Below, piece by piece: positions 46,305 through 64,000 of a stretch of 64,000 nucleotides of DNA. The notes beneath the pieces were generated by a model. That model had not been told where the DNA came from, ran no database searches, and worked only from the letters and a program-made list of their open reading frames with translations. The stretch covers positions 248,001-312,000 of the forward strand of contig NZ_LGUC01000002.1 in NCBI RefSeq assembly GCF_001307315.1, read 5' to 3'. This DNA comes from Halolamina pelagica. Lineage in GTDB: Archaea > Halobacteriota > Halobacteria > Halobacteriales > Haloferacaceae. Positions within the stretch are counted from its first letter, which is position 1, and every line of letters starts with the position of its first letter. The position numbers and the translations under genes were made by a program.

Positions 46305-46330
46305 TGATTGCCTCAAGTAAGGGATGGAGA

Positions 46331-46337
46331 CTTATGA
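46331..46337 (-). promoter_or_regulatory. Possible TATA box of the MacB-type operon
   Basis: TCATAAG read on the minus strand, about 30 bases upstream of the ATG at 46304. Confidence 0.4.
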
Positions 46338-46343
46338 GTTCTT

Positions 46344-46369
46344 CCCGCGCGTGCGCGAATACGCGCGGG
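46344..46369. repeat. 9-base inverted repeat upstream of MacB-type operon
   Basis: CCCGCGCGT at 46344-46352 and ACGCGCGGG at 46361-46369 form a perfect stem with an 8-base loop, just outside the probable promoter of the operon. Position suggests a regulator site; on RNA it would be a stable hairpin. Confidence 0.5.
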
Positions 46370-46531
46370 CGGAGCATCGGGCCCGTCCGCTTCGAGAAAC
46401 GAACGAGAAACCGCCGACTATTCGGCTATGAACTCGATCACGGCGGGGACACGATACTGGAGACAGGGATCGGCAGCGAGGAATCCGACATCGAGTTCGG
46501 GAGCGGGGTGTACAGGTGGTGCAAGGCGACT

Positions 46532-46554
46532 GCCTCGGGGCTTCCCCCCGAGGC
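46532..46554 (-). terminator. Hairpin downstream of serpin gene
   Basis: Perfect 9-base stem (46532-46540 with 46546-46554) and 5-base loop, 55 bases after the serpin stop at 46609. A probable transcript end; no T-run follows. Confidence 0.45.
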
Positions 46555-46608
46555 GGTTCACTGTCTCCAGCGGCGTTGCAGCACGTCTTGGGGCCGCGGC
46601 TGAACCGC

Positions 46609-47949
46609 CTACTCCTGTGCAGCGCCGGCGTCGACAACATGTCCCGTGAAAAGCACGGTCCCGGTTGGCCGGTCTCGGATCACGAAGAGGAATGGCCGAT
46701 TCGCGTTGAGTACCGTCGGCGGGAGCGACACGAGATTCACCACTGATCCCGTCGCCACTGCTGCTTCGGTGCCCTGCTCGTCGACGCTGATGGACGTGTC
46801 GTGGTACACTTGGTCGACGAAGAGGTTGCCCCCGGTCTCGGAAAGATCGGCCATCCGCGAGAAGTCCGCCGCGTCCGGGTCGAACGCGTCGGTCATGCCC
46901 AGCGCCTCCAGGGCTTGCTCCAGCTTGCACGACGAGTCGAACTCGAACCGTGGGAGGTTGACGTAGCCACGCTGCGGTTCGAGCGCGTCGACGATCCGGC
47001 CGAGCTGCTCGCCGTCGAACGATCGTTCGTAGGCCGCGAACTCGCCAGCGGGCGGGACGACGATGAGCATTCCCGTCGTCCCGCCGACGTACGGTAGTTC
47101 GACGGCTTGGGCTCCGTCGACGGTCGCCGCCGGGACCTGGACGTCCTGGGACATCATCTGGACTGTGCTCGTCGAGCCATCGAGCGCGGTAAACTCGGCC
47201 GGCTCAGTTTGGTCTTCGTCGAACGGGTGGCGCCAGTTCGCCATGAAGGAGATGGCGTTCGTCAGGACGAGCACGGTCTCGGACGTGATCGAATCCGCCG
47301 GAAGCAACGCTTCGATCCGGTCATCGGTCTGGTCGGCGATCCAGGCGTTGATGGCTTCGCGGACACCGTCCGGATTCTCGACGAAATCGACCTGATTGAG
47401 GCCGCCGCCGTAGTGGTTCTCCAGCGTGGTTCGGTACTCGTCCCGGAACGGAAACCCCGCTTGGCCCCAGATGGCGTTGACGAGCGAGAGCTGGAAGGGA
47501 ACGGGATCGTCGCCCTCGTCGTAGTCTGACGGGAGGTCCTCCCCGTCGAGATCGTCGTCGCGGCCAGACAGCGTTCGCTGGAGTTCGTTGAACGCCGCAT
47601 GGAGCTGGTGGTCGGCAACTGTGTAGCCGAGGGACGCCCGCATTTGTTCGCGAGTGGTCCCGCTGGAACCGGCGTACGTCATCGCCAGCGCGATTGTGGC
47701 ACTGATGGGCGAGACCAGCAGGTTCTCCGATTCAGCAGCCGTGCGGAGCTCGTCGAACAGGTCCAACGCGAACGTGTTCGTTCCAGTAACCAACTCGTCG
47801 AGCGTGTCGCTGTCGACGTCCGGCTGGAGGGCAGGTGTGGACGGTGCGCTCGCGCTGACGTCGGCTTGCGAGGCCGCGGGGGCTGTACAACCCGCGAGGG
47901 CACCGGCGAGGAGGGCGCTCGAAACGGCGAGATATCGGCGACGGTCCAT
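46609..47949 (-). CDS. Secreted lipoprotein serpin (serine protease inhibitor)
   Basis: 446 residues from the ATG at 47949. The N-terminus MDRRRYLAVSSALLAGALAG with a Cys at 21-22 is a Tat-type lipoprotein signal with lipobox LAGC. The serpin fold follows: NLLVSPISATIALAMTYAGS, NAIWGQAGFPFRDEY, VLVLTNAISFMANWRHPFD, ELPYVGGTTGMLIVVPP and the C-terminal NANRPFLFVIRDRPTGTVLF. The reactive-loop hinge DEQGTEAAVATG has the small residues needed for loop insertion, so an inhibitory serpin is likely. P1 falls around SVVNLVS, suggesting an elastase- or chymotrypsin-like target. It may guard the cell surface against halolysins. Confidence 0.92.
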   Translation of the reverse strand: MDRRRYLAVSSALLAGALAGCTAPAASQADVSASAPSTPALQPDVDSDTLDELVTGTNTFALDLFDELRTAAESENLLVSPISATIALAMTYAGSSGTTREQMRASLGYTVADHQLHAAFNELQRTLSGRDDDLDGEDLPSDYDEGDDPVPFQLSLVNAIWGQAGFPFRDEYRTTLENHYGGGLNQVDFVENPDGVREAINAWIADQTDDRIEALLPADSITSETVLVLTNAISFMANWRHPFDEDQTEPAEFTALDGSTSTVQMMSQDVQVPAATVDGAQAVELPYVGGTTGMLIVVPPAGEFAAYERSFDGEQLGRIVDALEPQRGYVNLPRFEFDSSCKLEQALEALGMTDAFDPDAADFSRMADLSETGGNLFVDQVYHDTSISVDEQGTEAAVATGSVVNLVSLPPTVLNANRPFLFVIRDRPTGTVLFTGHVVDAGAAQE

Positions 47950-48198
47950 ACGCGTCGATTCAGGAGGTGCTGTGGAGTATCTTCTGTAAGCACAAACCAT
48001 CCTTTGAGCGACTGCTTCAACCGTCCCCGGCGGCGCGGGGTATTCGGGTTAGCCATGCAGCGACCGGGTACTCGTCGAGCCGCTGGAGCAACTGCGTATC
48101 GTCGGGACTGTGCTCCCAACTGCGGAGCGGACTGATCGTCGTGAGACGCGTTCTCGCTTCCTCGGGGCTATGCTCTTCTTCAACGTATTACCGAGGCG

Positions 48199-48504
48199 TC
48201 ATCGTTCCTTCTGCTCTCGCTCTGATCCCTCAGCCATCAGCTCACAGAACTGTTGGAGGAACGTTTCACGGTCAGTTCGACCGGCGTCGGCTGCGATGAG
48301 CGCTTTTTCGAGTCCGTCACGGGTCCGGCGGCAGTTTTCCCGGTAACAGGGCTTACAAACGCGTTCGAACTCTTTCCCCTGGCGGCACCACTGATCCCCG
48401 TACTTGTCGTATTCGTAGGTATCGTCCTCGTCGAATTTCTCGCCGCAGGCGATGCAGGTTACCTCTGGACTGGAGTTTTCGGCGAACGGCGTCGCACCCC
48501 TCAT
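48199..48504 (-). CDS. Small zinc-finger protein
   Basis: About 101 residues if started at the ATG at 48504; in-frame ATGs further up (48549, 48585) are possible. VTCIACGEKFDEDD and VCKPCYRENCRR give four to five cysteines spaced like a treble-clef or zinc ribbon, with WCRQG between. A helical C-terminal half (GLEKALIAADAGRTDRETFL) follows. It resembles uncharacterised haloarchaeal zinc-binding proteins; DNA or RNA binding is a guess. Confidence 0.7.
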   Translation of the reverse strand: MRGATPFAENSSPEVTCIACGEKFDEDDTYEYDKYGDQWCRQGKEFERVCKPCYRENCRRTRDGLEKALIAADAGRTDRETFLQQFCELMAEGSEREQKER

Positions 48505-48813
48505 TTGCCAGGTTGTTTTCGGCGAACTCCGGTAGGCGCGTTGCCTCATTATTGAGGAGATTGATAAACGGGCACCCGCCGCCAAGGCTTGTCACCTGGG
48601 CGCTTCACATCATGTCTGCGGATCATTGGACAGCACCCGGGCTGCTATCCTCCGCAGACGATGTGTAATCGGCTCCAGACACGCGGACCGAACTCTTACC
48701 GGACGGTGTGATACGCATCTTCCTCCGGAAAATTGCGGACATCCCGGGGGTGGGTGACGGGCCGACTCGATGACCCATTGGCAGGATCTGGACGGCTGTC
48801 CTCGGGGAGTGAC

Positions 48814-50743
48814 CTACCCCGGTCGGAAGAGCGATCGAACGAGGGCACGTAGATCCCGATCGACCGACGTGGCGTCCGTGGTCACCAGCGCGTCGAAGTA
48901 CTCCGGATCGCCGTCCGCATCCGGATCCACGTACACGCCGTACACCGGGAACGAGCAGGCGGCCAGTTCGTCCCTGTAGGCGTCGGTCGAGTCGGGTTCG
49001 CCGTCCGTGACGACGAACACCAGCGGCACAGCGCCTCTCCCGGTGTCGAGCAGCGATTTCGCGGCCGCGAGCGTCTCCGACAACGGGGTGGTACCACAAG
49101 CATCTCGGCGCATGAACCGGCGGACGTGATTCCCCGGATCACCCCGACCGGCACTTCCAGATACGGGAGGCTCTCGTACAGCGACAGCAGGCCCGTATCG
49201 ACGTCGGCCTCGCTGAACGCCGAGAGCAGCTGGCCGACCGCCTGCTCTGCCGCCTCGAGGCGGGCTCCGTCCATGGACCCCGATCGGTCCAGCACGATCA
49301 GGCAGGTGTAGTCCCGTTCGTCACCGCCTGTTCGCCGCTGAAACACACGATTGTCCCCCGGACGGCATTGGTGACTCTGGAACTGTCCACGCGACCGGTC
49401 CGGCGACCGCCTTCGAACCGAGTCCGCCGACGCCGTCGGAGTTTGGCGTCGAGGTCGGCCGCCAGCTGTCTCGCCCGCCGTTGCGCGTTCGCCCACCGCT
49501 CGTGGGCATCGCCCGCGTCGGACTTCTCCCCGATCCCGATGCGCTCGACTCCGGTCGACTCGTCGCGGACGAACTGGCGCAGCGACTTCGCAGCCGCTTC
49601 CAGCGTGGCCGTGGACTGATCACTGCGACGGCGGGCGACGTTTCCGGCCTGCCGAGCTCGCTGCCGGAGCTCCCGCTGTGCAACGGCTCCCGGGGGCAAC
49701 CGTGATCGGTCCTCGTCCGTGTCCGCATCGCCGCCGGTTGTGCTGGCCGTCGACGCCCCGTCGGCACCGGCGTGGGCTGCTCGCTCACGCCCGTCACGGA
49801 CGTACTCCCGCGCCTGTTCACTGTCGGGGAGGGCGGTCGCTCGTCTGGACGCACCGAACGTGTCGGTGTCGGCGTCCTGTGGACGGACGACCATCTGGTC
49901 AACGGGCCGGTGTTGGATCGCCGGAAGTGGGTCGAGTCGGTCCCGGACGTGCTCGAAGAAGCGAGCAGCGATATCGACGCGCTCGACACCGTCCGGTTCG
50001 GCCAGCATCGTGGCGACGTACTCATCCAACGCGGGTTCAAGCTCCCGTAGAACGTCCTCCCGGCCGTCTCTGACCTGCCTGGTCGGGTCTGCCGGATCGA
50101 CGAGCTCCGCAAACCGGTCGCCACGGGTGAACCCGCGGTCGAGGATGCCGACTTTCAGCCCTTCGAGGACGGTGTACTCTCCACGGACGGGAGGATCGGC
50201 GCCCGCCCCCGTGGCAGGGCCGAGTTCGAACAGCGCCGCGAACCGGCGGTGGCGGTCCTCGGCCAGTTTGCGGAACGTCCTGTTCAACAGCACCAGGTCG
50301 TTGGTGACGTTGAACTCGTTGGCAATCTGGGTCTCGACGACGGCGTCCTCGGCGGCGTTGTAGATCGTCCGAAAAACCGGCGTCCACTCGGGGCGAACGT
50401 CGTCGAGCAGCTCGTGAAACCGTGCGAAATCCGAATAGAGCACGTGGCCGAGTTCGTGGAACAGCAGCCCGACCTGCACCCGCTTGTTCCAGACTGCCGG
50501 CGGGAGGTCCGTTCCTGGCTGGTCGTACGCCCGCGTCGGGATCCGGATCTCGTACGCTTCGCCCGGGCGGTCGTCGACCACACAGCAGGCACCGTCCTCC
50601 ACGAAGCTGACAGACACGGACACCGCTCTGGGCGTACAGAGCCCGGCCAGCCGTTCGAGCGTGTCCCGCCGGCTCTCGGAGGCCCGTTCGGCCGTCGAAA
50701 GCGAGGCGAGCTCCACGTCCGAGGTTTCGGGTGTGACTTGCAC
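48814..50743 (-). CDS. NorD/CobT-like VWA protein with HExxH domain, two frameshifts
   Basis: 643 residues after repair. Residues 1 to about 260 form a metallopeptidase-like domain with the zinc motif LLFHELGHVLYSD (HELGH at 96-100) and NAAEDAVVETQIANEFN, where a third ligand could lie. A charged, disordered linker is followed by a C-terminal VWA domain with MIDAS LDRSGSMDG and VFVVTDGEPDSTDAY. Breaks in C runs at 49355-49359 (repair: RGDNRVFQRRTGGDERDY) and 49132-49135 (repair: GVIRGNHVRRFMRRDACG) leave 644 codons. It begins 2 bases after the MoxR ATPase gene; such pairs remodel or insert cofactors into target complexes. Confidence 0.85.
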
Positions 50744-50745
50744 TG

Positions 50746-51662
50746 TTAGAGGCGTTTCGCGATGTAGGTCTCGACCAGCGTCTCGTCGTACTCGGAGACG
50801 CGGGCCACCAGTTCGCTCTTGGCAGCCGCTTTCAGGTCCATGAAGTCGTCCTGGATGAACTGAGCGATCCTGACGAGCTCGCGCGTGGTCACGGGCGTCG
50901 AGAGCTCGCCGTCGACGTACGCTTCGCGCAGTCGCCCCGCGAGCGCCACGAGGTCCTCGACCTCCTGCCTGCGGGCGTCGTCGAGCCCCGTCCGGTCGAG
51001 GATCAGGTCGGTCTCCACCTCGGCCGGGAGATACGTCAGTTTGATGTGGCGGAACCGGTCTTCGAACGCGTCGTTCAGCTCGTAGGTCCCCTGGTAGCCG
51101 GGGTTTGCGGTCGCAACGACCCGGAACTCCGGGTGGGGCTCGATCGTCTCGCCCGTCTGCGGGATCGTCAGCGAGCGGGTCTGTCGCTGCTCCATGACGG
51201 CGTTGAGCGCAGCGACCGTGTTCGCGTCGGCGGCGTTGATCTCGTCGAGCAGCAGGACGCCCCCTCCCGGACCGCCCGCGTCAGCGGCCCGTCGATCCAC
51301 TCCGTCCGAGTGCCGCCGTCGTCGGAGCTCAACAGATGGAGGTGGCCGAGCAGGTCCTCCTTGTACGTCGTCTCCGAGAGGGTGATACGGTACAGCGGGC
51401 GGTTCGTCTGCGCACAGAGATACTTCGCCAAGTAGCTCTTGCCGACCCCCGGTGGCCCCTTCAGCACCACGTTCATCCCGAGCGCCAGCGCGCGAGTGAC
51501 GATCTCCACGTCCGTCCGACCGCCGGCGACCGAGCGCCGGTGGTACGTCTCCTGTGTGATCTCTGGGACCATCGGGTGCCCGGTCGGTTCGAGCACCGCC
51601 AAGTTCCCGAACGTCTCCGTAGTCGCTGCCCCGACGGTCTGCGTTGAATCCTCCGTACTCAT
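50746..51662 (-). CDS. MoxR/NorQ/CbbQ-type AAA+ ATPase, one frameshift
   Basis: 305 residues after repair. Walker A is VVLKGPPGVGKSYLAKYL (GxxGxGKS at 69-76), Walker B VLLLDEINAADANTV, sensor 1 VVATANPGYQG, and the arginine-finger region DAFEDRFRHIKL. The C run at 51260-51264 is one short; repair gives VREGGVLLLDEINAA. The ring-forming ATPase acts with VWA partners, here the next gene, to remodel proteins. The 199-base gap to the plus-strand HEAT gene must hold both promoters. Confidence 0.9.
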
Positions 51663-51861
51663 GATGATCTGCGTCGCGCGGCGACGACATCTGGATGTAC
51701 AGCACGATACCCATACCGGTTCTACCGTCGGCGTTCACCCACGCCGAAGCAGGCCGATCCGACTCGGGAGGACGAAGGCTGCCGGGTCGATGGGCCGTTG
51801 TCGGTCGTCTCGACCGGACTCGGGGAAAGGGTTTGTCGGCTGCTCGTCGTCTCGCCGATAC

Positions 51862-54800
51862 ATGGATCTCGAAGGCGTCGAACGATGTGCGACGGAGCTC
51901 CGGGCCGGCGAACGGGACCCCGGATCGGTCGTCGACGACGTTCTCCCGGCGCTGACCGCACGACCGCGGCTAGTCCGCACGCGGGCGCTCGAAGTGGCGA
52001 CGACGGCCGCTGAGCGGGCGCCGGAGAAATCCCGCGCGGTGATCGAGTCGCTCCGGTCGGGACTCGACGCCGACGCCGAGCTGACCACCCACGAGATCGA
52101 GACGCTCGACCGGATCGCGGGTCACTCCCCGCGGGCGATGGCCGACTGCGTCCAACCCCTCGTGAGCGCGATCAGCGACGAGGGAGCGTCGGACCGGGCG
52201 GCGGCCGCGGCGACGGTTCTCGCGACGATCGCGGCCGGCGAGCCGGGGCTGCTACAGGGGGCAGTCCGCCCGCTCGTCGACGGGATCGATGCCGACTCTC
52301 AATCCGGCAGAGACTGTGCGTGGGCACTCAGACGGCTCGATACCGCGGAGCCGGCGGTCACCCGCCCCATAGTCGCCGACGCCGTCTGGACGCTCCAGGA
52401 CGGTGACGACACAGCCAAACGCGACGCGCTCTATCGACTCGCGCAGTTGGGCCGGATCGTCCCGGAGCGCATCCCCGACCCGGCGATGGACGAGATTGCG
52501 GCCCGCACCTCGGCCGCGGAACCGGCCGTCCGTGCTGCTGCCGTCACCACGCTCGCGGCGATCGGCGGACGGCCGCCGGAGCCTGTTCTCGAACGCGGCG
52601 CCGAGCTCGACGGCGGGAATCTCTACACCGGAATCGGCTCCAGCGAGACGGACAAGCTGCTCCGGGACAGCCTCCGCCCCCTCGGAACGGCTGCGTTCAA
52701 CCGACTCACACCGTATCGTGATCGCCTCGAGTCGGCGATCGTCGACCCGGCTCCGGAGGTGCGGGCCGCAGCGCTCGACGCCGTCCGAACGCTCGGCCGG
52801 GAGCGACCGGGATGGCTCCGGTCGATCGTCGACGACCACAGAGCGATGCGCTCCGCCGCCGAACGCACGGTTCGGCGACGGTTCGTCTCAGTGCTGCAGG
52901 TGTCGACCCGTGGCGCCTCCGGCGCCTATCGTGAGCAGGTGGCGACCGACCTGCTCCGGACGTTGGGCGACGCCGACGTGACCACCGCTCTCCGCGCAGT
53001 TGCGGGGCTCAGGGCGCTACTCGAAGCCACTGGTGATCAGGAGGCGCCAGTCCCTGACCCCGAGGCAGTTCGGGACGCACTGCTGGCCCGACTGCTGACG
53101 AGTGACGGCGACCTCATGAACGAGCTCATCGACACCGTGTTGCATCTCGATCAGGAGAACGTGATCGAGATCACGTCCAGCAAGATCGCTGTCGTTCTGG
53201 ACCGCTTTCACGCACGCCTCGCCAGTCCCGAGACGACGATCGAGAACGTGGGCGGGATTGCCCAGTTCCTCGCCGAGACGATCGGTGAGATCGACATGGC
53301 ACGGGAACTGATCGAGCGGGCACCGGAGGCGGAGTTCGAGATCCCGGACGAACTCGATACTGCGCCCGTGTTCCGACTGCTCGTAGAGAACGCCAGCGAC
53401 TGGGGGACGACGCCGCGCTTTGGGAGACCCTCGCCTCGGCGTACACCGATCCGGAAGCGTTCGACGCGGAGGAGTTCCGGACCGATATCGTCGAGGCGTT
53501 TCTCGACGCGGAGAACCCCGACCTGGGAGCCGCCGCCGACCTGCTCCGGGCGCTAATCGAGGAGCTCGAAGCCGACTCGTCGCCGTACTGGAACACTGCC
53601 GACGGGATCAACACGATCGAGGCGCTCCTCACTCGGCACCCTCGCGTCGCCGAGGAGTGCCGGGCGGCACTCTACGAGCTGGCGGTCGACACGGAGAAAC
53701 GGGGGGTCGTCGGGTTCCGCCTCCTCGGGACTGCCTGCCTCGCGGCCCCGCCCGCCGGCGAACGCTGGCGTCGTCGCCTCGAAGACCAACTTGATACCCC
53801 CGAGCGAGAAACCTCGAGCCACGCGTGGCTCGCGGGGGCAGTGCTCGTCTGCAGTGCCGACCCGGACCAACGAGCGTACGCGAAACGACGACTGCTGTCG
53901 GCTATCGCGCAGGGCGAGTCGGGGCCGGTGTCGGACGTGCTCGGGCGCATCTGTGACACGGTGGGTGCGCCGCCGACGAGCGTCGCCGCGGAACTGGCGG
54001 TCGCCGAACCGAAACGGACACTCGAAATACTGACGCACAGTTCGCCACCGAACCAGACAGGGCAGGAAATCGTGACGCAGGTAGTTCGGTCACTCCCGAG
54101 CCACCCGTCAGGGAGCGTCCGAGCGGTGGTCGAGGAGTATCTCGAGTCGACGACCGCAGCCGACACTGTCCCCTCGGCCATTCGCACCGAGTATAGTCAC
54201 GTGTTCCTCCGATTCGGTTCGGACGCACTCCGTGAATCAGTGCTGTGTCACCTCCGAGAGCAGGCCGACAAGTGCGGTCGTGCGGGGCTCACCGTCGACG
54301 CCGCGACGCTGGCCGCCGTCGGGGCACTTCGGCGTCACCCGGTCCGCCGAATCCGGGAGACGGCCGCGACCCTTCACGACCGACTCGACGCCGGGGCCCG
54401 ATCCCCGGGAACGCCGCGCCAGACTGGCGTCGTCGGGACGGCGGCGGCCGATGCCGGTTCGACCGTCCTCGAACCGCGCATTCTCGAGCCGGTGACGGTC
54501 CGCCGGCTCGGGGACGAACTGCTGACGACGGCGACCGCCCCCTCGGCGGCCGTGGTGGACTCCCTGAGAACCACTGCGAGAGACGGTGAGCCGCCGGCAG
54601 CCGCGGCGGCGCTCCGGACGCTGCGGACGCTGCTTCGGGCGGGCCGGGTGGACTGGGAGCGGATCGAGGGCGTCGTCGTGACGCAGTTGACCGACCCACA
54701 CCGACTCGTTCGACGGATCGCCGCCCGTGGCCTGCTCACCGCAGCGCACCTCGGCGACCTAGAGGGCGACCGGTCCTTCGTCGTCGACCGGCTCAGCGCG

Positions 54801-56041
54801 GACACCGCGACGAGCGGCATCCTCGCCCGGCTGCTCGCCCTCTCCCCGCCCGCCGAGTGGCACGCCCCGTCGGTGGCCGCCAACGCCCTGATCAAGGCGC
54901 TGTTCGAGAGCCCCACCGCCGCACAGCGACACGCATGCGGCGTGGTGTTCCGCCGACTGGTAAACAGCGCGCCGGAGCAGTCTCGTGCCGCGGTCGATTC
55001 CGGGCTCGACCTGCTCGACGAGGGGAAGGGTCACGCGTTGAGTGCGTACCACCTGTTGCTCGCCTTCGGCGACCAGATCGAGGACCACGGTCGCCTCGTG
55101 GGCTCCCACGACGAGCTCGTCTCGGCGATGATCAGCAACGCGTTACAGACCGGCATTCCGGGGAACTGGGGCCCCGACACCGAGTTCTTGCACGACGAGG
55201 CGACCGTGACGGACCCGATCGAACTGACGACCGTCTGGCGGGCCGCGCTTCGGGTCGCCGCTGTCGGGGGGCTGCCCGTGTACAAGCGGGCCCTGGACCC
55301 CCGGACGAACTGACGGACACCGACCTAGTCACCGTCGACTCGGTCCGTTCGTTCCTCCGGAACGCGTCCGAACAGCCCGTCGAGGAGTTCGGCGAGGCGC
55401 TCCTGCAGGCGCTTTCGCAGTCGCAACTGGAGCGGTTGGTCAGTCGCTGGACGAGCGATGCGTTCGCGCCGTCGACGGAGCTCGCTCGCCGGGAGGTTTC
55501 GATGCTCCCGGCGTTCGCTGCCGTCGATGAGCGCGCCGACCAGAACAGCCACCGATATCTCGACCTGGCGCTGGCCGCGGCCGAGCGCGACGACGAGGGG
55601 CTGAGAAAAATCGCCATCGAGGCGCTCAGCGACCTCGCCGAGCAGGGGCTGCTGTCGGCGTGGGCGTTCACGTCCCGGCTGATCGCCCACGTCGACGACC
55701 CGAGCGGCTGGGTTCGGCGCCGTGTCGCCGAGGAGCTCGCGACCCACGTGTCGGAGGGGCACTTGTCCGCCAGTTGGCTCCTGCGGTGGGCTGAGGCTGA
55801 ACTGACCGATCCAGACGGGCTCGGGGCACAGACGGCGGCGATGGCGGTCGGAGCCTTCGGTGTCGAAGCGGCACGGCACCGACGGGACTGTCTGGCTCTC
55901 GTCGAGACGGCGTACGAAACGGGCCAGCCGATCCTCGACTCACGGCTCCTCGAGGCAGCGAGCCGGCTCGTGGAGGCGTCCCCCGGCCTCGCGGACCGCT
56001 GTGAGATCGGGCGTGAGCAACTGCAGACCGTCGAGGGGTAA
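51862..56041 (+). CDS. Giant HEAT/ARM-type alpha-solenoid protein, two frameshifts
   Basis: 1393 residues after repair, made almost entirely of HEAT-like helical pairs, for example PAPEVRAAALDAVRTLGRER, DPHRLVRRIAARGLLTAAHL and DDPSGWVRRRVAEELATHVS. No signal, membrane segment or catalytic motif is visible, so it should be a cytosolic scaffold. The frame breaks in the G run at 53402-53406 (repair: ASDWGDDAALWETLASAY) and the C run at 55298-55302 (repair: RALDPPDELTDTDLVTVD). It is divergent from the MoxR/VWA pair and followed by a second HEAT gene, suggesting a platform or substrate of that remodelling system or of the nearby ubiquitin-like system. Confidence 0.8.
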
Positions 56042-56095
56042 CCACGCCCCTGCCCGCAACGTTTACCCGTCGGACGGCGAAGCCCAGATAGAGCG

Positions 56096-58737
56096 ATGGG
56101 GGCCCGGCAGAACGACTCGGCGGTGGAGACGCTTTTGGGTGCTGCCCGCGAGGGGAAGGAGACGCCGGCACAGCTCCGGTCCCGTCGGCACGCCGTCGCG
56201 GTGGCGCGGGACGCGCCGGCGGCGGCCGCCGAGCATCTGCGGACGGTCTGGGAGATCTACTTCGCGGAGATCGACCGACAGGTCTCGGCCGTCGACGAGT
56301 TCGCACAGATCGACGACTACTCGACCGACATCCGTGCGACCTGTGCCGAGGTGTTCCTCGCGGTCGCCGACACCGACGGGCAGCGATTCACCGGTCACCA
56401 GTCGGCCCTCCTGCGCGCGCTGCGGGTGGAGTCGATCGAACCGATCCGTGAGACGTTGATCGAGACGGCCGGGTCGCTCGTCGAGCAAGGGATCGCTCCC
56501 GACCGGGAGCTCGTCGACGTGCTCTGCGAGATCGGAAAAACGACCGAGCAGACGGGGACGGGGGCGCAGTTGCGACGGTGCTGGGAACGTACGCGGCCCC
56601 CGAGTTCGACGAACCGATACAGCGGCACGCCGCGAGTGCACTCGAGTCCATCGTAGAACACCAGCGGGCGTATTTCGCTATCTCCACGCTGCGTGAACTC
56701 GGCCGGATCGCCGTCGACAACGGGTACGACGATCTCTCGATGACTGCGGTCGACCGGCTGGCTGCCGTCGTTGACCAGCACATGCTGACTGACGAGGATG
56801 GGGACGAACCGCTTCAGCGGGTCCGTGAGGCGTTTCTCACGGCCGCGGAGGCGAACGACTGGGCAGCTGCCGAGTCGACGTACCTGCTCGAAACGGCGGT
56901 GGACGCCGGGCCGGTGGTGAACACGGAGATGATGGGCCCGATATTCGAGGCGGGCGTCGACATCGACGACGAAGGGCGGCTGCAGGAACTGATGGAGTTC
57001 GCCTCGGATGCGACGTTCGACCTCGAGGCGATGATCCGATTCGCAGCGTTGACCGAACTCAAGAGGATCGGCGCCGGTACTGACTCGACTGCGGTCAGGC
57101 GGGAGGTACTGGGGGTTCTCGACCGGATCGTCAGGGAGAGCGAGAAACTGCACCTCAGCCTCGTCGCTACGCTCAAAATCGGGGAGGTGGGCGAGTGTAT
57201 CGCGGATACGACGCTTCGCCGGGATGCGATCGCGATGCTCGAACGGGCACTGGAGACGGACGAGTACCTCGCGAGAAGCGCGGCCGCGGACGCGCTCGGC
57301 GACGTTGCAGCGTCCAGCACCTCGATATCGCTACTGGATCGGGTCCTCGACGTACTCCGTGTCGAGTTCACCGCAGGGGAACCGGAGCCACTCCACAGCG
57401 TACGGAAACCGATTCGGCAGATCGGTATCCGGACCGACGACCCCGAGGGACAGGCGATGGTGCTCGCACTCGTCCGGTCGCTCGTGAGCAGAGAGCGCGA
57501 CGGCGCAGTCGAGATCCTCAAAGACGCCCCGAAACTGCTGGAAGCACTCGACCAGCGCCTCGCACCCGAGGCCCTCGACGTCATTCGGGCCGCCGTGTGG
57601 AACGGCTACCACCACGTGAGCGCCTCGGGCGTGGACGCCGTTTCCGGCGCTTGGCTCGCGGCACAACCCGCCGAGACCCAGCGAGCGATACGGCGAACGC
57701 TGTTTGACGCCGCGCTTCACGACGACGCGAGCCCGCTGGCGAAGCAGAAAGTAATCCAAACGCACCTGGAGTTCGTCGACGAGGGGGTGACAGCCAGCTA
57801 CTCGTCCCCGTGCTGGGCTACCTTGCGGCGGCAGATCACGACGTGGTCCGGCTGTTCGCGATGGCGGCGCTCGCCCGACAGTCGACCGACCGCGCGGACG
57901 CCATTCTCGGCAGTTTCCTGGAGGACGACGAGACCGCCGTCAACCTCGCGATGGCGTGGGGGCGGGGTGACCTCCCGGTCGACCCCCGTCGGCGGCGACG
58001 GACCACGAGGACGCGTTGACAGCGATAAACGTCGCTGCGGCTTCCGATCAGGAGCGGACCGAGCAGGTCGTCCTGTCCGAACTCCGGTTCACCTCGACGC
58101 CCGACGCCGAGATGGCTCTCTCGCCGGACGACGATTTGGACGTCGTTGTGGCCCACGTCCTCACGTCGGGGTCGCTCCAGTTCCGCCGCGAGACCGTCGA
58201 TCTGCTGCAGGAACACGCCGACGGGTTCCGAACCTCGGTCCGTCGACGCCTCGTCGAGACGCTGGCACTCGGGATGGTCGACGACAACGGGGCGGTCGGG
58301 AACGCCACCGCGAACGCGGTCGCGAGGCTGTGTGTGACGACTGACGACCGGCAGACGTGGGAACGGGGAGTCGAGGTACTCCGGACCGGGATCACTGACG
58401 GTCGGAGCCACGCCGTCAGCGGGGCCGCCGAGGCGCTCACCGAGATGGCCACGTCCGCGCCGCCAGAGGCACCCATCCAGCGCATCCGCGAGGCGCTCTA
58501 CGCCGCGATCATCAACGGGGGCGGATCGCCGCCGTCGCAGCGGTCGAAGGGATCGCCGAAGTCGGGGCGGACGCGCGCGACCTGCAACAGCTGCTCGTGT
58601 CGACCCCCGAATGTCGACCCACGCTCGGGAAGGCGAGCCGGGACAGCGACCTCTCCGATCGAGGGGTCTCGGTCGCGATCGACCTGGCGGCGACCACCGG
58701 CCCGAGCACGGCGAGGCCGTCGTCGGCCGAGGAGTGA
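56096..58737 (+). CDS. Second large HEAT-type alpha-solenoid protein, four frameshifts
   Basis: 881 residues after repair, again repeated helical pairs (ALETDEYLARSAAADALGDV, DHDVVRLFAMAALARQSTD) with no catalytic motif. One-base gaps lie within 56554-56564 (repair: GAVATVLGTYAAPEFDEP), at 57783-57787 (repair: DEGGDSQLLVPVLGYLAA), 57983-57987 (repair: VDPPSAATDHEDALTAIN) and 58517-58521 (repair: NGGRIAAVAAVEGIAEVG), giving 882 codons and a stop at 58737. It starts 54 bases after the first HEAT gene, so they probably form one transcription unit with the small acidic gene that follows. Confidence 0.78.
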
Positions 58738-58808
58738 TACTTAAACACTTCGCAGACTGTGGCTCGTCGGAGGGGTCGATGCGCCTCCAGCCAGTAGGAG
58801 GAGGTGTG

Positions 58809-59204
58809 ATGGCAGCAACGGACACCACGGCGGCCGACGACGACGAACAGGCTGACTCCCCGATCGAGGCACTCACACAGCGCCTGGCCGAACAGGCCGA
58901 GCACCAGGAGAACTTCCAGACGTTCCTCCGGGTCCGCTCGGACCCGGATGCCGACGCCGCAGAACAGTTCCAGGAGGACCTGATCGAGTTCATCAAGACC
59001 AAGATGGCCGAGGAGGATATCGGCGTTCCCGAGGCCGCGATCGCGCTCTGGGAACAGGTGGCGCTGATGGAGCGGAACGTTCGCGACGGCGACGGCGATG
59101 CCGGCGAGCCGTCCGCGATGCCCCAGCAGGGCGACTCCCGTGACGCGGCCCGGGACGACGGCGACAGCGACGCCGGGCTGCCGGACGACCCGGCGTTCCA
59201 GTGA
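58809..59204 (+). CDS. Small acidic hypothetical protein
   Basis: 131 residues, very acidic. A helical middle (about 25-95; LTQRLAEQAEHQENFQTFLR, EFIKTKMAEEDIGVPEAAIA) is flanked by disordered Asp-rich ends. The strong Shine-Dalgarno-like GGAGGAGGT just before the ATG at 58809 fixes the start. It is third in the HEAT operon and ends 39 bases from the convergent JAMM-E1 gene. It could be an adaptor or client of the neighbouring systems; no family recognised. Confidence 0.7.
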   Translation: MAATDTTAADDDEQADSPIEALTQRLAEQAEHQENFQTFLRVRSDPDADAAEQFQEDLIEFIKTKMAEEDIGVPEAAIALWEQVALMERNVRDGDGDAGEPSAMPQQGDSRDAARDDGDSDAGLPDDPAFQ

Positions 59205-59243
59205 GCCATCGGTCGTTCTCTTTTTTCGACGAGCGGAGCGGCG

Positions 59244-61037
59244 TCAGGATCGGCTCCTGAGCCGCCTGATCGCGACGAACGCCAGGACGGCCAGGCCTAG
59301 CAGCCACTTTCGCTCCCGCGCCGCCCGGCTGAGCCGACTCGCCCCCGACGGTGAGCGGTCGCTGGCTGAAGCCATCGAGGAGTCGGCTGTTTGCTGTGCT
59401 CCCGCTGCGCCGGGGTCGGCAGTCGAACCCCACGCCGTCGACTCGACGGCCTGCGCCGCCGGGCCGGCAGCCGACGCTGTGCCTGCCGGATCGGGCGCCG
59501 GGCCAGCCGTCCCGTCGTCGGGGGTTCCAGAATCACTCGACGCCTCCTGGAGCGTGTCGCCGGTGATCGTCGTCGCTTCGACCGCCTCCGCCTCGCTCGC
59601 GGGCGACGACACGTCGATGTCACCGCCGATCAGGGCGTCGGTCTCGAACGCCTGCTCGCCGACGCCGAGCATCCCGTCGGCGCCGCAGGTGATGCAGTCG
59701 TCCGACGGGTGCGTCCCCACGTCCACCAGTTCCTCGTCGAGCCCATCGAACCGGAGGTAGTCAGTCGGCGAACTGTAGCCGGTGACGAGTTTGGTGAACA
59801 GCCGGCTGATCGACGAGGCGGCCATCCCGTTGAGTGGGGTGATCGCGGGTTCCGGCGACCGGACGTCCTCGTCGATATAGCCCCGCTCGATGTCGGCCTC
59901 GATCTCGTCGTCGGACATCTCCTCGACCCGGAGGTGTTCCGGGTCGTTCCGACCCAGACAGTCCAGACACGCGGTGACGCCGGGGGCGACGAGCTGGATC
60001 AGCCCCCGCTCTTCGGTCACCCGCTCGTCGTCGTCGGTCTCGATGGCGACGCCGCCGTCGATGTAGTAGCGGAGGTGACGAGTGGCGAACTCGTTGCAGT
60101 AGAGGCGCGCACTCAGCCTGTCGACGGCGCCGATGACGACATCGCACTCGGCGAGAACGCGCTCGGGGACGGCCTGCACGCGGTCGTTGTAGGCCCGTAC
60201 CTCCGCGTCCGGGTTCGCCCGGACGACCTGCTCGCCGACAACGTCGACCTTGTCGCGGCCGATGTCGGCCGCCGTCGCCCCGTAGATGCGGGGGAGGTTC
60301 GACCGTTCGACGACGTCGGGATCCGCGAACACGAACTCCTGAACGCCGAAGCGTGCCAACTGCAGCGCCACCATCGACCCCAGTCCCCCGAGGCCGGCGA
60401 TCCCGACGGTGGTGTCAGCCACTTGCTGCTGGCCGTCGTCGGTGAGGGCCCTGATGGACCGGTCGTATCGGTCCGCATCGACCGACACGTCGGGCGCCGT
60501 GCTCGGCGTCTCGAGCGGCGTGTCGAGCGTCCACTCGCCGACGATGTCGACCCCGAGCCGGTCCCGCTGGGGCTCGGTCGGATCGGTGTACACCGCGGTA
60601 TCGACGCCGCGGTGACCGACGACGACGAACCCGAGCGGCGTCTCCGGGTAGAGTTTGCCCAGCCACTTTCGGTAGGACTCCATGATGTCGTCGTCGAGCG
60701 CGCTGAACCCCGGCCGCTGGCTGAAGGGGTGGCTGTGGACCATGATCGGTACCAGCCCCGCCTCCATCGCCGCCCCGAGCCGCTCACGCTCGACAGCAAG
60801 CTCCGGGCGAACGGCGCTCGACTCCATCACGGCACAGTCCTCGGCGGGGATCGGATCGATCTCGCGGGCGAGCAGTCGGCCGTGCTGGGGCTCGCAGTAG
60901 ATGTAGGCGAACCGCTCGATACCGTCGTCCTGGAGTGTCCAGTCCCGTAGCTGCGCCACCTGTGCTGCAGTCAGGACCAACTCCACGTCGTCGGCCACCT
61001 CGCCGCTCGTAACCGAGACTGTCGCTGACTGGTCCAT
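59244..61037 (-). CDS. JAMM-E1 fusion: ubiquitin-like activating enzyme with deubiquitinase domain and membrane anchor
   Basis: 597 residues, intact. Residues about 15-160 are a JAB/JAMM domain with MVHSHPFSQRPGFSALDDD (HxH at 101/103, Ser112, Asp115), the zinc site of isopeptidases. Residues about 185-455 are a ThiF/E1 adenylation domain: VGIAGLGGLGSMVALQLA (215-221), FADPDVVERSNLPR, DIGRDK, and zinc-knuckle pairs CLDC (357-360) and CITC (448-451). A low-complexity Ser/Ala/Gly linker leads to one C-terminal helix (LLGLAVLAFVAI) and a basic end, anchoring it to the membrane. It would activate the two ubiquitin-like proteins encoded upstream and process or remove them. It starts 3 bases after the E2-like stop. 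Confidence 0.9.
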   Translation of the reverse strand: MDQSATVSVTSGEVADDVELVLTAAQVAQLRDWTLQDDGIERFAYIYCEPQHGRLLAREIDPIPAEDCAVMESSAVRPELAVERERLGAAMEAGLVPIMVHSHPFSQRPGFSALDDDIMESYRKWLGKLYPETPLGFVVVGHRGVDTAVYTDPTEPQRDRLGVDIVGEWTLDTPLETPSTAPDVSVDADRYDRSIRALTDDGQQQVADTTVGIAGLGGLGSMVALQLARFGVQEFVFADPDVVERSNLPRIYGATAADIGRDKVDVVGEQVVRANPDAEVRAYNDRVQAVPERVLAECDVVIGAVDRLSARLYCNEFATRHLRYYIDGGVAIETDDDERVTEERGLIQLVAPGVTACLDCLGRNDPEHLRVEEMSDDEIEADIERGYIDEDVRSPEPAITPLNGMAASSISRLFTKLVTGYSSPTDYLRFDGLDEELVDVGTHPSDDCITCGADGMLGVGEQAFETDALIGGDIDVSSPASEAEAVEATTITGDTLQEASSDSGTPDDGTAGPAPDPAGTASAAGPAAQAVESTAWGSTADPGAAGAQQTADSSMASASDRSPSGASRLSRAARERKWLLGLAVLAFVAIRRLRSRS

Positions 61038-61040
61038 TTG

Positions 61041-61460
61041 TCAGGCCTCCATGAGCGGGTTCTTGGCGCGGGGGTTCTCCAGGGAGACTTCGAGCACGTT
61101 GAACATCGTCTTCAGATCGTGCTCGGCGGGGTCCCAGTCGGGAAGCGTGTGGATACAGTACTTGATGAACCCCGCGGGCGCGACCGAACGGGCGTACAGC
61201 ACGTGCGGGCTGTCCCCTTCGTACCGCATGTCCCCGGAGACGTACACCTTCGGCTGCTTGCGGGGGTACGTTCGACTCAGGTCGAAGATCACGTCACCGA
61301 AGCGCGTGCCGTCGCTGTTCTCCCACCCCTCCGGGAAGCGGAGCTGTTCGATCCGGACCTCGAGTTCGTCGGCCAGGTCGTACGACATGATCGGGTTCTG
61401 TCGCTGCTTGATCATCTCGTGGAGCTCCTGGACCTCCGGGACGACGCGGTTCGGGTTCAT
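61041..61460 (-). CDS. E2-like conjugating enzyme with single cysteine
   Basis: 139 residues. UBC-fold features run in order: an N-terminal helix (VPEVQELHEMIKQRQ), RIEQLRFPEGWENS, FDLSRTYPRKQPKVYVSGDM, then FIKYCIHTLPDWDPAEHDLK, where Cys102, the only cysteine in the protein, is followed by W-x-P and a helix, as after the catalytic cysteine of E2 enzymes. It should accept a ubiquitin-like protein from the E1 domain of the next gene. Its ATG overlaps the stop of the second ubiquitin-like gene (ATGA). Homology to E2 is by pattern and context; a structure model would test it. Confidence 0.8.
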   Translation of the reverse strand: MNPNRVVPEVQELHEMIKQRQNPIMSYDLADELEVRIEQLRFPEGWENSDGTRFGDVIFDLSRTYPRKQPKVYVSGDMRYEGDSPHVLYARSVAPAGFIKYCIHTLPDWDPAEHDLKTMFNVLEVSLENPRAKNPLMEA

Positions 61461-61842
61461 CGCGCGCCGAACACCTCCGAGTCGCCCATCGGCTGGGTCT
61501 GGATCTCGCCGCCGTCGTCGACGTAGTCGGCGACCACGTCGTCGTCGGTCAGCGCTTCGATACCGTCGGGGGACCGGTAGGTGAACACCGCCTCGGAGCC
61601 GACCCCTCAGACTCCCGTAACTCACCGACAGTGGTGTCTTGGCGGATACTGACCGGCTCACCGTTGAGCGATACGGTATGGCGCTCGGTGGCCGCTGTTC
61701 CACCGGCCGCGCCGTCGTGGTCCGTGTCGCTGGTCGTGTCGGGTTCCTCGTCCGGGGCAGCTTCGCCCTGCGTCGCCGACGGCAGTTCGTCGGCCTCCCG
61801 GAGGCGCTGTTCGATCGTCGTAGCTGTCGTGTCTCTCGTCAT
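61457..61842 (-). CDS. Ubiquitin-like protein with N-terminal extension, one frameshift
   Basis: 128 residues after repair. About 55 acidic, disordered residues (MTRDTTATTIEQRLREADEL and on) precede a beta-grasp-like domain: HTVSLNGEPVSIRQDTTVGE, VFTYRSPDGIEALTDDD, VVADYVDDGGEIQTQPMGD, ending VFGAR. The C run at 61603-61606 is one short; without repair the domain is destroyed. The domain aligns well with the 76-residue protein at 62268. The last residues are GAR rather than a di-glycine, so either trimming occurs, conjugation does not depend on GG, or this copy has another role. Confidence 0.78.
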
Positions 61843-61848
61843 AGGGTG

Positions 61849-62271
61849 TTAGTTCTGGACTTCGTCGAACCCATCCGGGCTTTCGAGCACCGCCTGGAGC
61901 CGTTCGAACACGGTGACGAGGGAATGGGCACTCGCGTCCCAGCTATCGGGATCCGAGAACAGGTCGAACGCCGCCCAGTCGGCAGGCGCATCGACGCGTC
62001 CCGGCGCCATCTGGACGGGCCGTGACCCCTCGTACCGCATGTCGTCCGAGACGAACACCCGCGGCGGGTGCTCCGGATACGTCTCCGGGAGTTCGATCAA
62101 GATGGAGCCGTAGCGCCCGCCGCTGCGGTTCTGCCACCCATCCGGGAACGCGAAGCCGTCGATCCTGACCTCGTGGTCGTCGCTGAAGTCGTAGCGGAGA
62201 CGGCCGGCGAACTCGTCGCCGAGGCTGCGTTCCAACTCCCGAACGTCGCTGAGCGCCGCCGCGAGCGTCAT
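61849..62271 (-). CDS. E2-like protein lacking cysteine (E2 variant)
   Basis: 140 residues, clearly paralogous to the E2-like protein at 61041: RIDGFAFPDGWQNRS, ELPETYPEHPPRVFVSDDM and RYEG match it without gaps up to residue 102. At 102, where the paralogue has its cysteine, this protein has Phe (PADWAAFDLFSDPDSWDA), and the whole protein has no cysteine. It therefore cannot form an E2 thioester and resembles UEV proteins, which pair with an active E2. Its ATG overlaps the stop of the ubiquitin-like gene (ATGA). Confidence 0.78.
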   Translation of the reverse strand: MTLAAALSDVRELERSLGDEFAGRLRYDFSDDHEVRIDGFAFPDGWQNRSGGRYGSILIELPETYPEHPPRVFVSDDMRYEGSRPVQMAPGRVDAPADWAAFDLFSDPDSWDASAHSLVTVFERLQAVLESPDGFDEVQN

Positions 62272-62498
62272 GGTCCACCGAAGACGTTGTCGTCAGCCAA
62301 CGGTTGGGCAGTCAGCTGTGCCCCCTCGTCGACGTGGTCGACGACGATGTCGTCGTCGTTGAGCGACTCGAACCCGTCGTCCCCACGGTAGGTGAGGATC
62401 GCGTTCTCGTCGAGTTCGGCGAGCTCTTTCACGTCCGCTGCGGTGGTGTCCTCTTCGACCGGAATCTCCTGATTGTCGACCGTAACGATCTGCGCCAT
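62268..62498 (-). CDS. Ubiquitin-like protein, 76 residues
   Basis: Exactly 76 residues, beta-grasp-like: MAQIVTVDNQEIPVEEDTTA gives a beta-hairpin, ADVKELAELDENAILTYRGD the helix and third strand, FESLNDDDIVVDHVDEGAQL the remaining strands, and the tail ends DDNVFGGP. A di-glycine is present but followed by one Pro, so a protease such as the JAMM domain of the operon would need to remove it to expose GG. The ATG at 62498 is the first of a five-gene operon with ATGA overlaps. Confidence 0.8.
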   Translation of the reverse strand: MAQIVTVDNQEIPVEEDTTAADVKELAELDENAILTYRGDDGFESLNDDDIVVDHVDEGAQLTAQPLADDNVFGGP

Positions 62499-62838
62499 TG
62501 TGGTGTGGGTTGGTGCTGTCTGCCCGGATAACCGTCCGGGCAACGGTGGGTTGTTGGCCGTACTGTGTCGGGCTGTGTGGGGACAGTGATCGGGTCGTGA
62601 TCGCTCACGACCGTGTCTACCCCAGTGTACACCCCTGACCAGCATCACCGTAATCGCGAGTAGGAATGGCTGCGCTCGGAGAAGACAGACCGAGCCCGAT
62701 TCGTCGTGGCTCACCCGCTCTGGGAGGCGCCGACGCCCCTTCCCGACTCCAGTCGGGGTACTCTGTGTCACCGATCAGCGCCGGCCGCAGCGCTTCCAGT
62801 CTGAACGGACACCATCGGCGGCTCGAGTGGCGGGCGGC
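62499..62838. other. 340-base gap with hairpins before the ubiquitin-like operon
   Basis: No gene is supported. Three perfect short inverted repeats occur: CCCGGA/TCCGGG at 62523-62540, GTCGTGA/TCACGAC at 62594-62611, and CCCGAC/GTCGGG at 62742-62757. The last lies 80 bases after the end of the upstream zinc-cluster gene and may end its transcript. A weak AT-richer GGTTATCC near 62526-62533, about 30 bases before the ubiquitin-like ATG, could be its promoter. Confidence 0.45.
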
Positions 62839-64000
62839 CTACCGCGCGTCTTCGAGCGCCTGAACGAACTGGAGCTTGTGCTCCCGCACAGTGTCGACCA
62901 TCTGTGCGGAGGGACAGCCGTCGGGGTGACACCGCCCGTGGCCGAGATGCCACAGAGCGGACACGCGACGGTCCGATCGGCGTCCCGTCCAACCATCCCG
63001 AGGAGCGTGTCCAACAGTTCGTTGCCGAAGTACACCCGCTCCCAAAGCTGTTTGTACGTCTCGACGGCGTCGACGGGCACCCCGAGGGCGTCGTCGGGAA
63101 CGGCCTCGTCCGCGACCAGCGGGTTCACTAGCCAGTTGGGCTGGATCCCGTCCTCGGTTTCGATGCGGTAGACGACGCCGCCGAAGTTGCCGGTGAACCG
63201 GAAGGCGGCGTTGATGATCTGCCCCATCTCCGTCGGCGCCTCGAGCACGACGTCGTACTTGTTGCGGAGCAGGTCGGTCGACTCGATCGACTGGGGGATA
63301 TCAAGCAGTGGGAGGTCGAGTTCGCGGGGATGTACGCCCTCGGCTCCCTGGACCGGCCCGGACAGTTCGGCCTCGATTTCCGCCAGGAGCGCCTCCTCGG
63401 ACTCCTCGTCGACGTCGCCCGGATCGATCCTTCGAACCGCGCTAACGGCGGCGTCGAGCCGATCCCGGAGGTTCAGGTCGCCAGCCGGGATGGCGTCGAA
63501 CCCGTCGATGTCGTGCGGGCCGACGAGATACGGCGTATCGAGCGCGGCGTCGGCGGCGAGTTCCGTGACACGCCGACCGTAGTCTCGCTCCAGGCCGGCG
63601 AGGGTATCGTACACCTCGGCGTCCTCTTCCCTGGCTCGGCGGGTGAGGAACTCCCGGAGGCGTTCGAACCGCCGTTCGACCGTCTCCCGGTCGGCTGCCT
63701 CGTCGAGCGAGAGGTACTGGTCGATATGCCGGTCGAGATACCCCGTTTCCGACATCACCGACTGACAGAGATACTTGTCGACGCCTTCGAGGAACGAGAA
63801 GCGCCGCTCGTGGAGGGTGTCGATCGCCTGTTCGGCGTCGACGATCCGCTCGGCTGCCGACTGGATGCGGCTGGGGTCGTCGATCGCGTCGAACAGCGCA
63901 CGGATACTCCGCATTCGAAGCAGGTGGTGGCTCCGAGTGAGGCCGAACCGGTGCCGCCGTCCGTGCATCATCTCCTCGGCCAGCCCGAACGTCTGGAAGT
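62839..64000 (-). CDS. Uncharacterised protein with C-terminal Cys/His zinc cluster, 5' end outside window, one frameshift
   Basis: At least 387 codons, open at the window edge (FQTFGLAEEMMHGRR in frame at the border). A helical, acidic N-terminal region (EQAIDTLHERRFSFLEGVDK; RRFERLREFLTRRAREEDAE) leads to a mixed domain (YDVVLEAPTEMGQIINAAFR) and a C-terminal cluster CPLCG then HGRCHPDGC, ending VREHKLQFVQALEDAR. The frame changes between these two motifs (about 62941-62955), so one base is missing there; the short GG or CC gives no long homopolymer, so the exact repair is uncertain. Two Cys pairs plus His suggest a treble-clef or RING-like zinc site. Confidence 0.7.

Follow-up and report, generated by a model that had tools for sequence, protein, structure and literature searches.

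A candidate ubiquitin-like conjugation operon with a cysteine-bearing E2-fold protein in haloarchaea, probably related to the bacterial Bub pathway

Several prokaryotic gene sets that handle ubiquitin-like proteins (Ubls) are known. Bil places a Ubl, a Cys E2, an E1 and a JAMM in one operon, the E1 and the JAMM being separate genes; type II CBASS has an E1-E2 fusion protein, and Bub works via an oxyester. The haloarchaeal SAMP/UbaA pathway has, to our knowledge, neither an E2 nor a JAMM-E1 fusion. Iyer et al. (2006, PMC1779556) describe a type 6e with a JAB domain at the N-terminus of the E1, one to three Ubl repeats, a Cys-less E2-fold domain and a Zn-finger protein; its current name is Bub, which is also used for Citrobacter BubB and BubCD in the PDB, and the defining paper is Ye et al. 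2026, as cited in PMC13373217. SAMP Ubls are conjugated in haloarchaea by an E1, UbaA, and the corresponding sections of PMC2948915 and PMC3403918 describe no E2 and no JAMM-E1 fusion for that pathway. Here we analyze a window of 64,000 nucleotides from the haloarchaeon Halolamina pelagica (assembly GCF_001307315.1, contig NZ_LGUC01000002.1, positions 248,001 to 312,000, renumbered from 1), in which five genes in a row on the minus strand (59244-62498) encode two Ubls, two E2-fold proteins and a JAMM-E1 fusion. Judged from its sequence, the operon seems equipped to tag proteins with a Ubl. We consider it rather likely that it encodes a haloarchaeal sister of the bacterial Bub pathway, which conjugates Ubls and serves a conflict locus of MoxR, vWA, HEAT-like and tubulin-like genes. 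Among the literature matches listed, no title or abstract start mentions a haloarchaeal E2 operon; the archaeal coverage of the main Bub paper lies outside this scope.

The genes of the operon, in the order of transcription, are:

62268..62498, minus strand: Ubl1, a beta-grasp protein of 76 amino acids, C-terminal end VFGGP
61849..62271, minus strand: E2a, an E2-fold protein of 140 amino acids, UEV-like, with Asp at the active-site column in place of Cys
61457..61842, minus strand: Ubl2, an acidic N-terminal extension and a Ubl domain, end EVFGAR; frame-broken near 61603
61041..61460, minus strand: E2b, an E2-fold protein of 139 amino acids with Cys102, Trp109 and Pro111 (KYCIHTLPDWDP)
59244..61037, minus strand: JAMM-E1, a fusion of 597 amino acids with a JAMM domain, an E1 adenylation domain, a long linker and a C-terminal hydrophobic tail

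An initial annotation, made from the letters of the sequence, had given this gene order with the same coordinates and domain calls, all of which hold. Its gaps of 3–6 bases are found at E2a/Ubl2 (6 bases) and E2b/JAMM-E1 (3 bases), while its three ATGA overlaps come down to two, at Ubl1/E2a and Ubl2/E2b. The same gene order recurs in four other haloarchaea (G and L numbers are our labels for genomes and loci): Haloferax marisrubri (L007/L008), G389 (L019), Natribaculum luteum (L020/L032) and N. longum (L033). The arrangement is thus more than chance.

The nearest characterized pathway is Bub, and not Bil or SAMP/UbaA, because the best solved relative of JAMM-E1 is Citrobacter BubCD. The protein alone has BubCD as its best PDB sequence match (9ea4, E 9.8e-26), and the match to chain 9ea5_A extends over residues 19–414 (E 1.7e-25); residues 1–199 by themselves reach E 0.0082, and a 12-row profile that included two bacterial proteins reaches E 1.3e-74. 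Bil, which the initial annotation had chosen for comparison without naming Bub, is therefore displaced as the closest system; it also differs in having separate E1 and JAMM genes where a single protein is found here. The JAMM motif HSHP...S..D (E41, H101, H103, S112, D115), the nucleotide motif GLGGLGS of the E1 and two CxxC pairs (357/360 and 448/451) are all present, as annotated. H101, H103 and D115 are invariant in 12/12 aligned rows, and E41 and S112 are found in at least 90%. Profile searches, which the initial annotation had proposed, recovered the ThiF domain (E 3.8e-42); Prok-JAB scored 14.1 bits, below its Pfam cut-off of 25, and the JAMM call is for this reason based on the motif together with the match to BubCD. 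The UbaA model gave 74.4 bits against a cut-off of 450. The PADLOC matches of JAMM-E1 that were listed (25 of 28) were all to E1-E2 models and covered the E1 part alone, and the other operon proteins had no PADLOC match; the E2 being a separate gene here, this is a difference from type II CBASS. Among phage records, 53 match JAMM-E1, mainly in its E1 part (best 20 of 53), and none has one place covering 80% of the protein. The membrane anchor that had been annotated corresponds to a hydrophobic C-terminal stretch, the strength of which is modest (mean Kyte-Doolittle 1.52 over 17 residues).

The two CxxC pairs are the only Cys columns common to all 12 E1 rows of the lineage to which this operon belongs (lineage I), and a classical E1 thioester accordingly looks unlikely. 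MoeB is not known to have a conserved catalytic Cys either. This feature and the resemblance of the E1 domain to ThiF/MoeB, together with a rhodanese gene in the window (42326-42691, E 3.8e-15), though about 17 kb off, would suit a sulfur-carrier system of the ThiS/ThiF kind, in which the E2-like proteins would not be transferases. We regard this as the least probable of the alternatives weighed here, as no sulfurtransferase is found among the nearer neighbors scanned, and neither the JAMM fusion nor a Cys E2 would have an evident role in it.

The conjugation reading gains from the two proteins that were modeled with AlphaFold2. The E2b model (four rows; predicted local distance difference test, pLDDT, 82.2; predicted template modeling score, pTM, 0.80) has a UBC fold, and the best 50 of its 603 Foldseek matches are all, by title, E2/UEV proteins or complexes holding one; of these 50, the top TM (0.66/0.71) belongs to Citrobacter BubB. 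The Ubl1 model (pLDDT 83.6, pTM 0.65) has the element order beta-beta-alpha-beta-beta-alpha-beta, and the best 50 of 802 matches belong for the most part to ubiquitin-like folds (FERM, RBD, variants of ubiquitin and bacterial multi-ubiquitin proteins), among them 8u38_C, a bacterial multi-ubiquitin chain, at a query TM (TMq) of 0.72. The UBC and beta-grasp folds expected by the initial annotation are thus supported for these two proteins, and the models and the profile searches together back its description of a haloarchaeal Ubl conjugation operon. Ubl1 is 75, 71 and 58% identical to relatives at the same gene position.

The active site of the E2 proteins sets the operons of lineage I apart from the bacterial ones. 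A mixed E2 profile (A1; 19 rows, one bacterial) found BubB in the PDB at E 1.1e-8, and its Cys column falls, in our hand reading of the HMMER alignment, on a Ser of BubB. Prok-E2_E is reported in 15 of the 19 members at E up to 0.1, E2b not being one of them. Exactly one Cys E2 is present in each of the 13 E1-bearing lineage-I operons (19 E2 genes), whereas all ten bacterial E2s read, eight of them aligned and two taken by eye from the same output, have Ser at the active site and His two residues on. Ser-x-His is found as well in a second lineage of fused proteins (lineage II, below). A Cys E2 beside a BubCD-like E1 in Haloferax marisrubri, Natribaculum, Salinigranum and Natrinema would allow Cys and Ser active sites to be compared inside one enzyme family, and would possibly be a tractable archaeal model of E2-dependent Ubl conjugation.

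The E2-like Cys followed by WxP that had been annotated belongs to the second E2-fold protein (as WDP); the first has no active-site Cys. E2a lacks it in 5/5 five-gene operons, with Asp or Ser in its place and no His two residues on, and has a motif of its own, RPxxMAPxR, where E2b has SPHVLY. It can be aligned to E2b; Pfam gave weak UEV (E 0.061) and UQ_con matches, both below cut-off, and phmmer gave E2-25K (E 0.0026). The duplicated Ubl-E2 pairs of the initial annotation accordingly survive as a gene order, not as two equal pairs: the downstream gene is a Cys E2 and the upstream one, with no Cys in any of the five operons, a putative UEV-like partner. We also considered Ubl1 with E2a and Ubl2 with E2b as two independent pathways, and rejected this, there being a single E1 and no Cys in E2a. 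The single E2 of Salinigranum is nearer to E2b than to E2a in 4/4 comparisons, and its Ubl nearer to Ubl1 than to Ubl2 in 3/3. The Ubl tree has no starred branch, and we draw no inference from it on the descent of Ubl1 and Ubl2.

The C-terminal end of the Ubls and the active site of the E2s appear to vary together. In the Ubl alignment (A3, 15 rows), FG is kept at the tail of all 13 rows from E1-bearing loci, with 0–7 residues beyond it; an FG end with 0–4 further residues is found in 4/7 bacterial Ubls read. The other two loci (G242 and G253) have a Ubl and an E2 but, in the surrounding 18 kb, nothing that matches JAMM-E1 at better than 1e-10, and there the Gly is lost, the Ubl ends in VFR and the accompanying E2 is Cys-less. 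This joint loss at E1-less loci fits a conjugating role for these residues and is the best sign, although an indirect one, that Gly and Cys may act together. E2a and the E2 of G242 form one clade (support 98/98; the near-copy G253 was excluded from the tree). That kinship with the E2 of a locus (L021) whose Ubl lacks the C-terminal Gly and which has Hsp70, GrpE and vWA genes, and the zinc-knuckle-like and 288-residue neighbors which the window locus has in common with L021 and the near-identical L022 of G253, could also be taken to mean that the Ubls and E2s chiefly serve the neighboring conflict locus as a non-covalent scaffold or adaptor, conjugation being secondary or limited to auto-modification. 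We judge this unlikely, although it is the most probable of the rival explanations, since the five-gene operons retain the Cys of E2b, the JAMM residues, the nucleotide-site residues of the E1 and the FG end of the Ubls. In L021 we also noted a weak transglutaminase-like match (10367-11410, E 0.0075, below cut-off), conceivably an alternative cross-linking enzyme.

The distribution of the operon is patchy. Among 391 genomes of the class, the five-gene order is found in four (the window genome, H. marisrubri, G389 and N. luteum), N. longum coming from the plasmid collection. A search with E2b matched 10/391 class genomes and 2/99 close relatives, the own genome counted in both, and 0/6 genomes of the same genus; the A1 profile matched 19/391 class genomes and, with the own genome counted, 4/392 across the phylum. 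Four plasmid records hold a relative, and no relative of E2b was found in viral contigs. Single Ubl-E2-JAMM/E1 operons are present in G320, G362, G388, G326, G189, Salinigranum marinum and Natrinema sp. SYSU A 869, and a Ubl-E2-E2-JAMM/E1 order in G218. In a JAMM-E1 tree of 25 rows (a quick method, with Shimodaira–Hasegawa-like approximate likelihood ratio test, SH-aLRT, support only), lineage I is one clade (100), the four five-gene rows are one clade (95) and S. marinum is the sister of the latter (100). The patchiness and the plasmid copies speak against a housekeeping SAMP-like pathway, in which the Ubls would feed proteasomal turnover and the conflict genes would be accidental neighbors. 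The conjugation of SAMP Ubls by UbaA in haloarchaea (PMC2948915 and PMC3403918), proteasome genes in the window genome and weak SAMP2 Pfam matches in 2 of the 15 A3 Ubls are consistent with such a pathway, to which we give a low probability.

Lineage II, in which a coiled coil, a Ubl and an E2 are fused and accompanied by JAMM-E1, is carried or apparently carried by six further genomes, and was seen in L064, L046, L048, L052, L075 and plasmid records of Halorarius, Haloarcula and Halorubrum. Its copies in G396 and Halorarius are nearly identical on the tree although the genera differ, which suggests recent transfer. A genome of the same phylum that is not among the matches in the class, G446 (L067 1255-1905 and 1859-3367), has a JAMM-E1 preceded by a Ubl-E2 fusion in which a Cys is apparent (WFCTGH...WDP); by its sequence, the Cys form of the E2 may not be confined to haloarchaea. 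A third type is seen at L063 (G079) and L049 (1143-1406), with a candidate Ubl open reading frame that ends in GC instead of FG.

The comparison with Bub shows both close agreement and clear differences. In common are a JAMM N-terminal to the E1 in one protein, a stand-alone E2-fold protein, short Ubl genes, the gene order Ubl-E2-JAMM/E1, the FG-type end (in 4/7 bacterial Ubls read) and plasmid copies. The bacterial plasmid relatives lie, in most loci fetched, in operons of multiubiquitin, E2/UBC, ThiF and DUF6527 genes, the E2 being sometimes fused or unannotated. The haloarchaeal side differs in the Cys of E2b, the extra Cys-less E2a, the second Ubl, the hydrophobic C-terminal tail of JAMM-E1, the archaeal host and the MoxR/vWA/tubulin-like neighbors. 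Further, none of the 15 A3 Ubl rows matches Multi_ubiq at E up to 0.1, whereas a Neotabrizicola Ubl does so at E 9.1e-13. With a Cys E2, no DUF6527 and no Multi_ubiq match, the operon is, on these features, a cousin of Bub and not a member of it.

Other systems, compared through those parts of their descriptions that were available, are more distant. SAMP/UbaA has a haloarchaeal Ubl and E1 in common with this locus, which differs in its two E2-fold genes, its JAMM-E1 fusion and the low UbaA score of its E1. E1 and JAMM (JAB) are united in a single archaeal protein in methanogen RC1 (PMC2948915) and in Nmag_0356 of Natrialba magadii (PMC3403918); the JAMM of Nmag_0356 is given as C-terminal and is N-terminal here, and the descriptions mention no E2 or Ubl operon for either. 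Caldiarchaeum-type systems, for which an archaeal E2 has been reported, unite it with an E1, a Ubl, a JAMM of the Rpn11-like kind and a RING protein of small size; Pfam found no RING in the neighbors scanned here. Ubl conjugation genes joined to MoxR-vWA are described for FtsH-ternary systems with a Ubl tri-ligase (Kaur et al. 2020, PMC7159879), which differ in having separate JAB, E1 and E3 genes, a Ubl-E2 fusion and EAD and caspase-like effectors. According to the same source, some NTP-dependent conflict systems of the MoxR-vWA or GTPase type include tubulin, HSP70 or Ubl genes. With a MoxR ATPase and a vWA protein, the window (48814-51738) and the N. luteum locus agree with the ternary systems in these two components.

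From the residues and the kinship above, we propose the following course of events. The JAMM domain would trim whatever follows the conserved FG (or FGG) near the Ubl C-terminus, and the E1 domain would adenylate the trimmed end. As the E1 has no conserved Cys besides its zinc-type CxxC pairs, the Ubl would pass from the adenylate directly to Cys102 of E2b, which would hand it on to a target protein or a further Ubl; the JAMM could later remove it. E2a may be a non-catalytic UEV-like variant that stands beside E2b or holds the Ubl, as Mms2 does for Ubc13, and JAMM-E1 may be tethered to the membrane by its tail. A defense role is suggested by the neighboring genes: the pathway would serve the conflict locus of MoxR, vWA, HEAT-like and tubulin-like genes, a locus probably directed at viruses or stress. 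A bolder version, which we put forward only tentatively, is a complete haloarchaeal Cys-E2 cascade that arose outside the Asgard/Caldiarchaeum line, with E2b and a conserved inactive E2a working together in the manner of Ubc13/Mms2 and a membrane E1 without a catalytic Cys, which would tag components of a tubulin-like and MoxR-vWA antiviral machine. If true, this cascade would also connect the canonical Cys E2s with those of Bub, which bear Ser.

Several results weigh against the kinship and function proposed here. Neither the E2b model (best 50 of 603) nor the Ubl1 model (best 50 of 802) has a Foldseek match at E < 0.001, and all Pfam matches of E2b fall short of the cut-off. A Cys-only E2 profile (A6; 12 rows, none bacterial) did not list BubB in the PDB at E up to 10; its matches were all weak and came mostly from UEV and Ufc1 proteins and from a single RWD-type (GCN2) chain, and the BubB kinship consequently rests on the mixed profile, the model and the shared gene order. 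DUF6527, presumably BubE and the Zn-finger protein of type 6e, is absent from all 19 haloarchaeal genomes searched (S. marinum, Natrinema sp. and N. longum were outside the search); a control search gave it in Caulobacter, one of 14 genomes. The 54 kb around the H. marisrubri operon and the sequence fetched near single-cassette relatives gave no match to MoxR/vWA, so this part of the setting is not constant. PMC13373217 states that no protection against phage has been demonstrated for Bub itself. Finally, Ubl2 is frame-broken in this assembly.

Four of the five genes are intact; the one-base frame change in the fifth, Ubl2, had been overlooked by the initial annotation. The N-terminal piece runs from 61842 to 61549 and the C-terminal piece, in another frame, reaches 61457; Ubl2 of H. 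marisrubri aligns to both with one break, and Ubl2 is without internal stop in 3/3 relatives checked (L007, L019, L020). The break would be in keeping with an operon that is decaying in this strain, with Ubl2 broken and E2a inactivated. Relative to H. marisrubri or N. luteum homologues, however, there is one frame break each in Ubl2, MoxR and a tubulin-like gene beyond the window and two in vWA, a proteasome-family gene on another contig appears split too, and the genome has a completeness of 79.9% although in 3 contigs. An assembly indel is therefore the probable cause; and E2a, Cys-less in all five operons, retains its own motif. Decay is thus very improbable.

The features around the operon are:

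62775..63998, minus strand, continuing past the window end to L027 10202: upstream neighbor with a CPLC zinc-knuckle-like motif (our reading), the C-terminal end probably frame-broken
50746..51738, minus strand: MoxR-like AAA+ ATPase in two frame pieces, AAA_5 E 4.6e-10
48814..50743, minus strand: vWA-domain protein in three frame pieces, from tblastn with the N. luteum vWA protein
51862..53556, plus strand: HEAT-like repeat open reading frame, Adaptin_N and HEAT matches below curated cut-offs

The upstream neighbor is 27% identical to a protein of L021 and L022. The MoxR is 66–67% identical to that of N. luteum, which scored 26.4 bits with bpMoxR (cut-off 27); the vWA protein of N. luteum matches VWA_2 at E 5.3e-7, and the largest vWA piece of the window alone has no Pfam match. 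Further open reading frames, as far as about 58.7 kb, seem to continue the HEAT-like gene in broken frame: HEAT_2 was found below cut-off in 55502-56041, and Pfam gave no match in three others, 56096-56656, 56578-58344 and 53841-55313 (where the best E, 0.062, was for an unrelated family). Over 190 residues, the HEAT-like frame shares 25% identity with part of L061 (E 1.9e-5). In N. luteum, annotated vWA and MoxR genes adjoin the operon, and a neighbor of 2335 residues matches Cnd1 above and HEAT_2 below cut-off. Tubulin-like genes lie within about 11 kb of 5/5 five-gene operons, called by Tubulin_2 in L007 and L019 and by tblastn with the L007 protein elsewhere; the G389 contig gives only 8 kb of context. 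Rfam reported nothing at gathering threshold within 46000-64000.

Some further observations were made in and near these loci. Two small acidic proteins (window 58809-59204 and L027 18491-18955), 51% identical over 74 residues, flank the locus on either side, one directly adjoining the JAMM-E1 gene. A deoxyhypusine synthase gene (E 2.4e-99), followed by the rhodanese gene, occupies 41135-42691 of the window, about 17 kb from the operon. HTH_20/MarR-like winged-helix regulators adjoin four single- or double-E2 operons (L024 4050-4481, L025 10944-11531, L026 10276-10737 and L045 2409-3002); two of them are below Pfam cut-offs, and they recall the Cap regulators beside Bub operons. On the Salinigranum marinum plasmid NZ_CP100464.1 (L028 1398-6651), a preQ0-type set (FolE, QueC, QueE and 6-pyruvoyl tetrahydropterin synthase) and a queuine/tRNA-guanine transglycosylase gene, possibly a 7-deazaguanine modification system, lie about 2 kb from a single-cassette Ubl operon.

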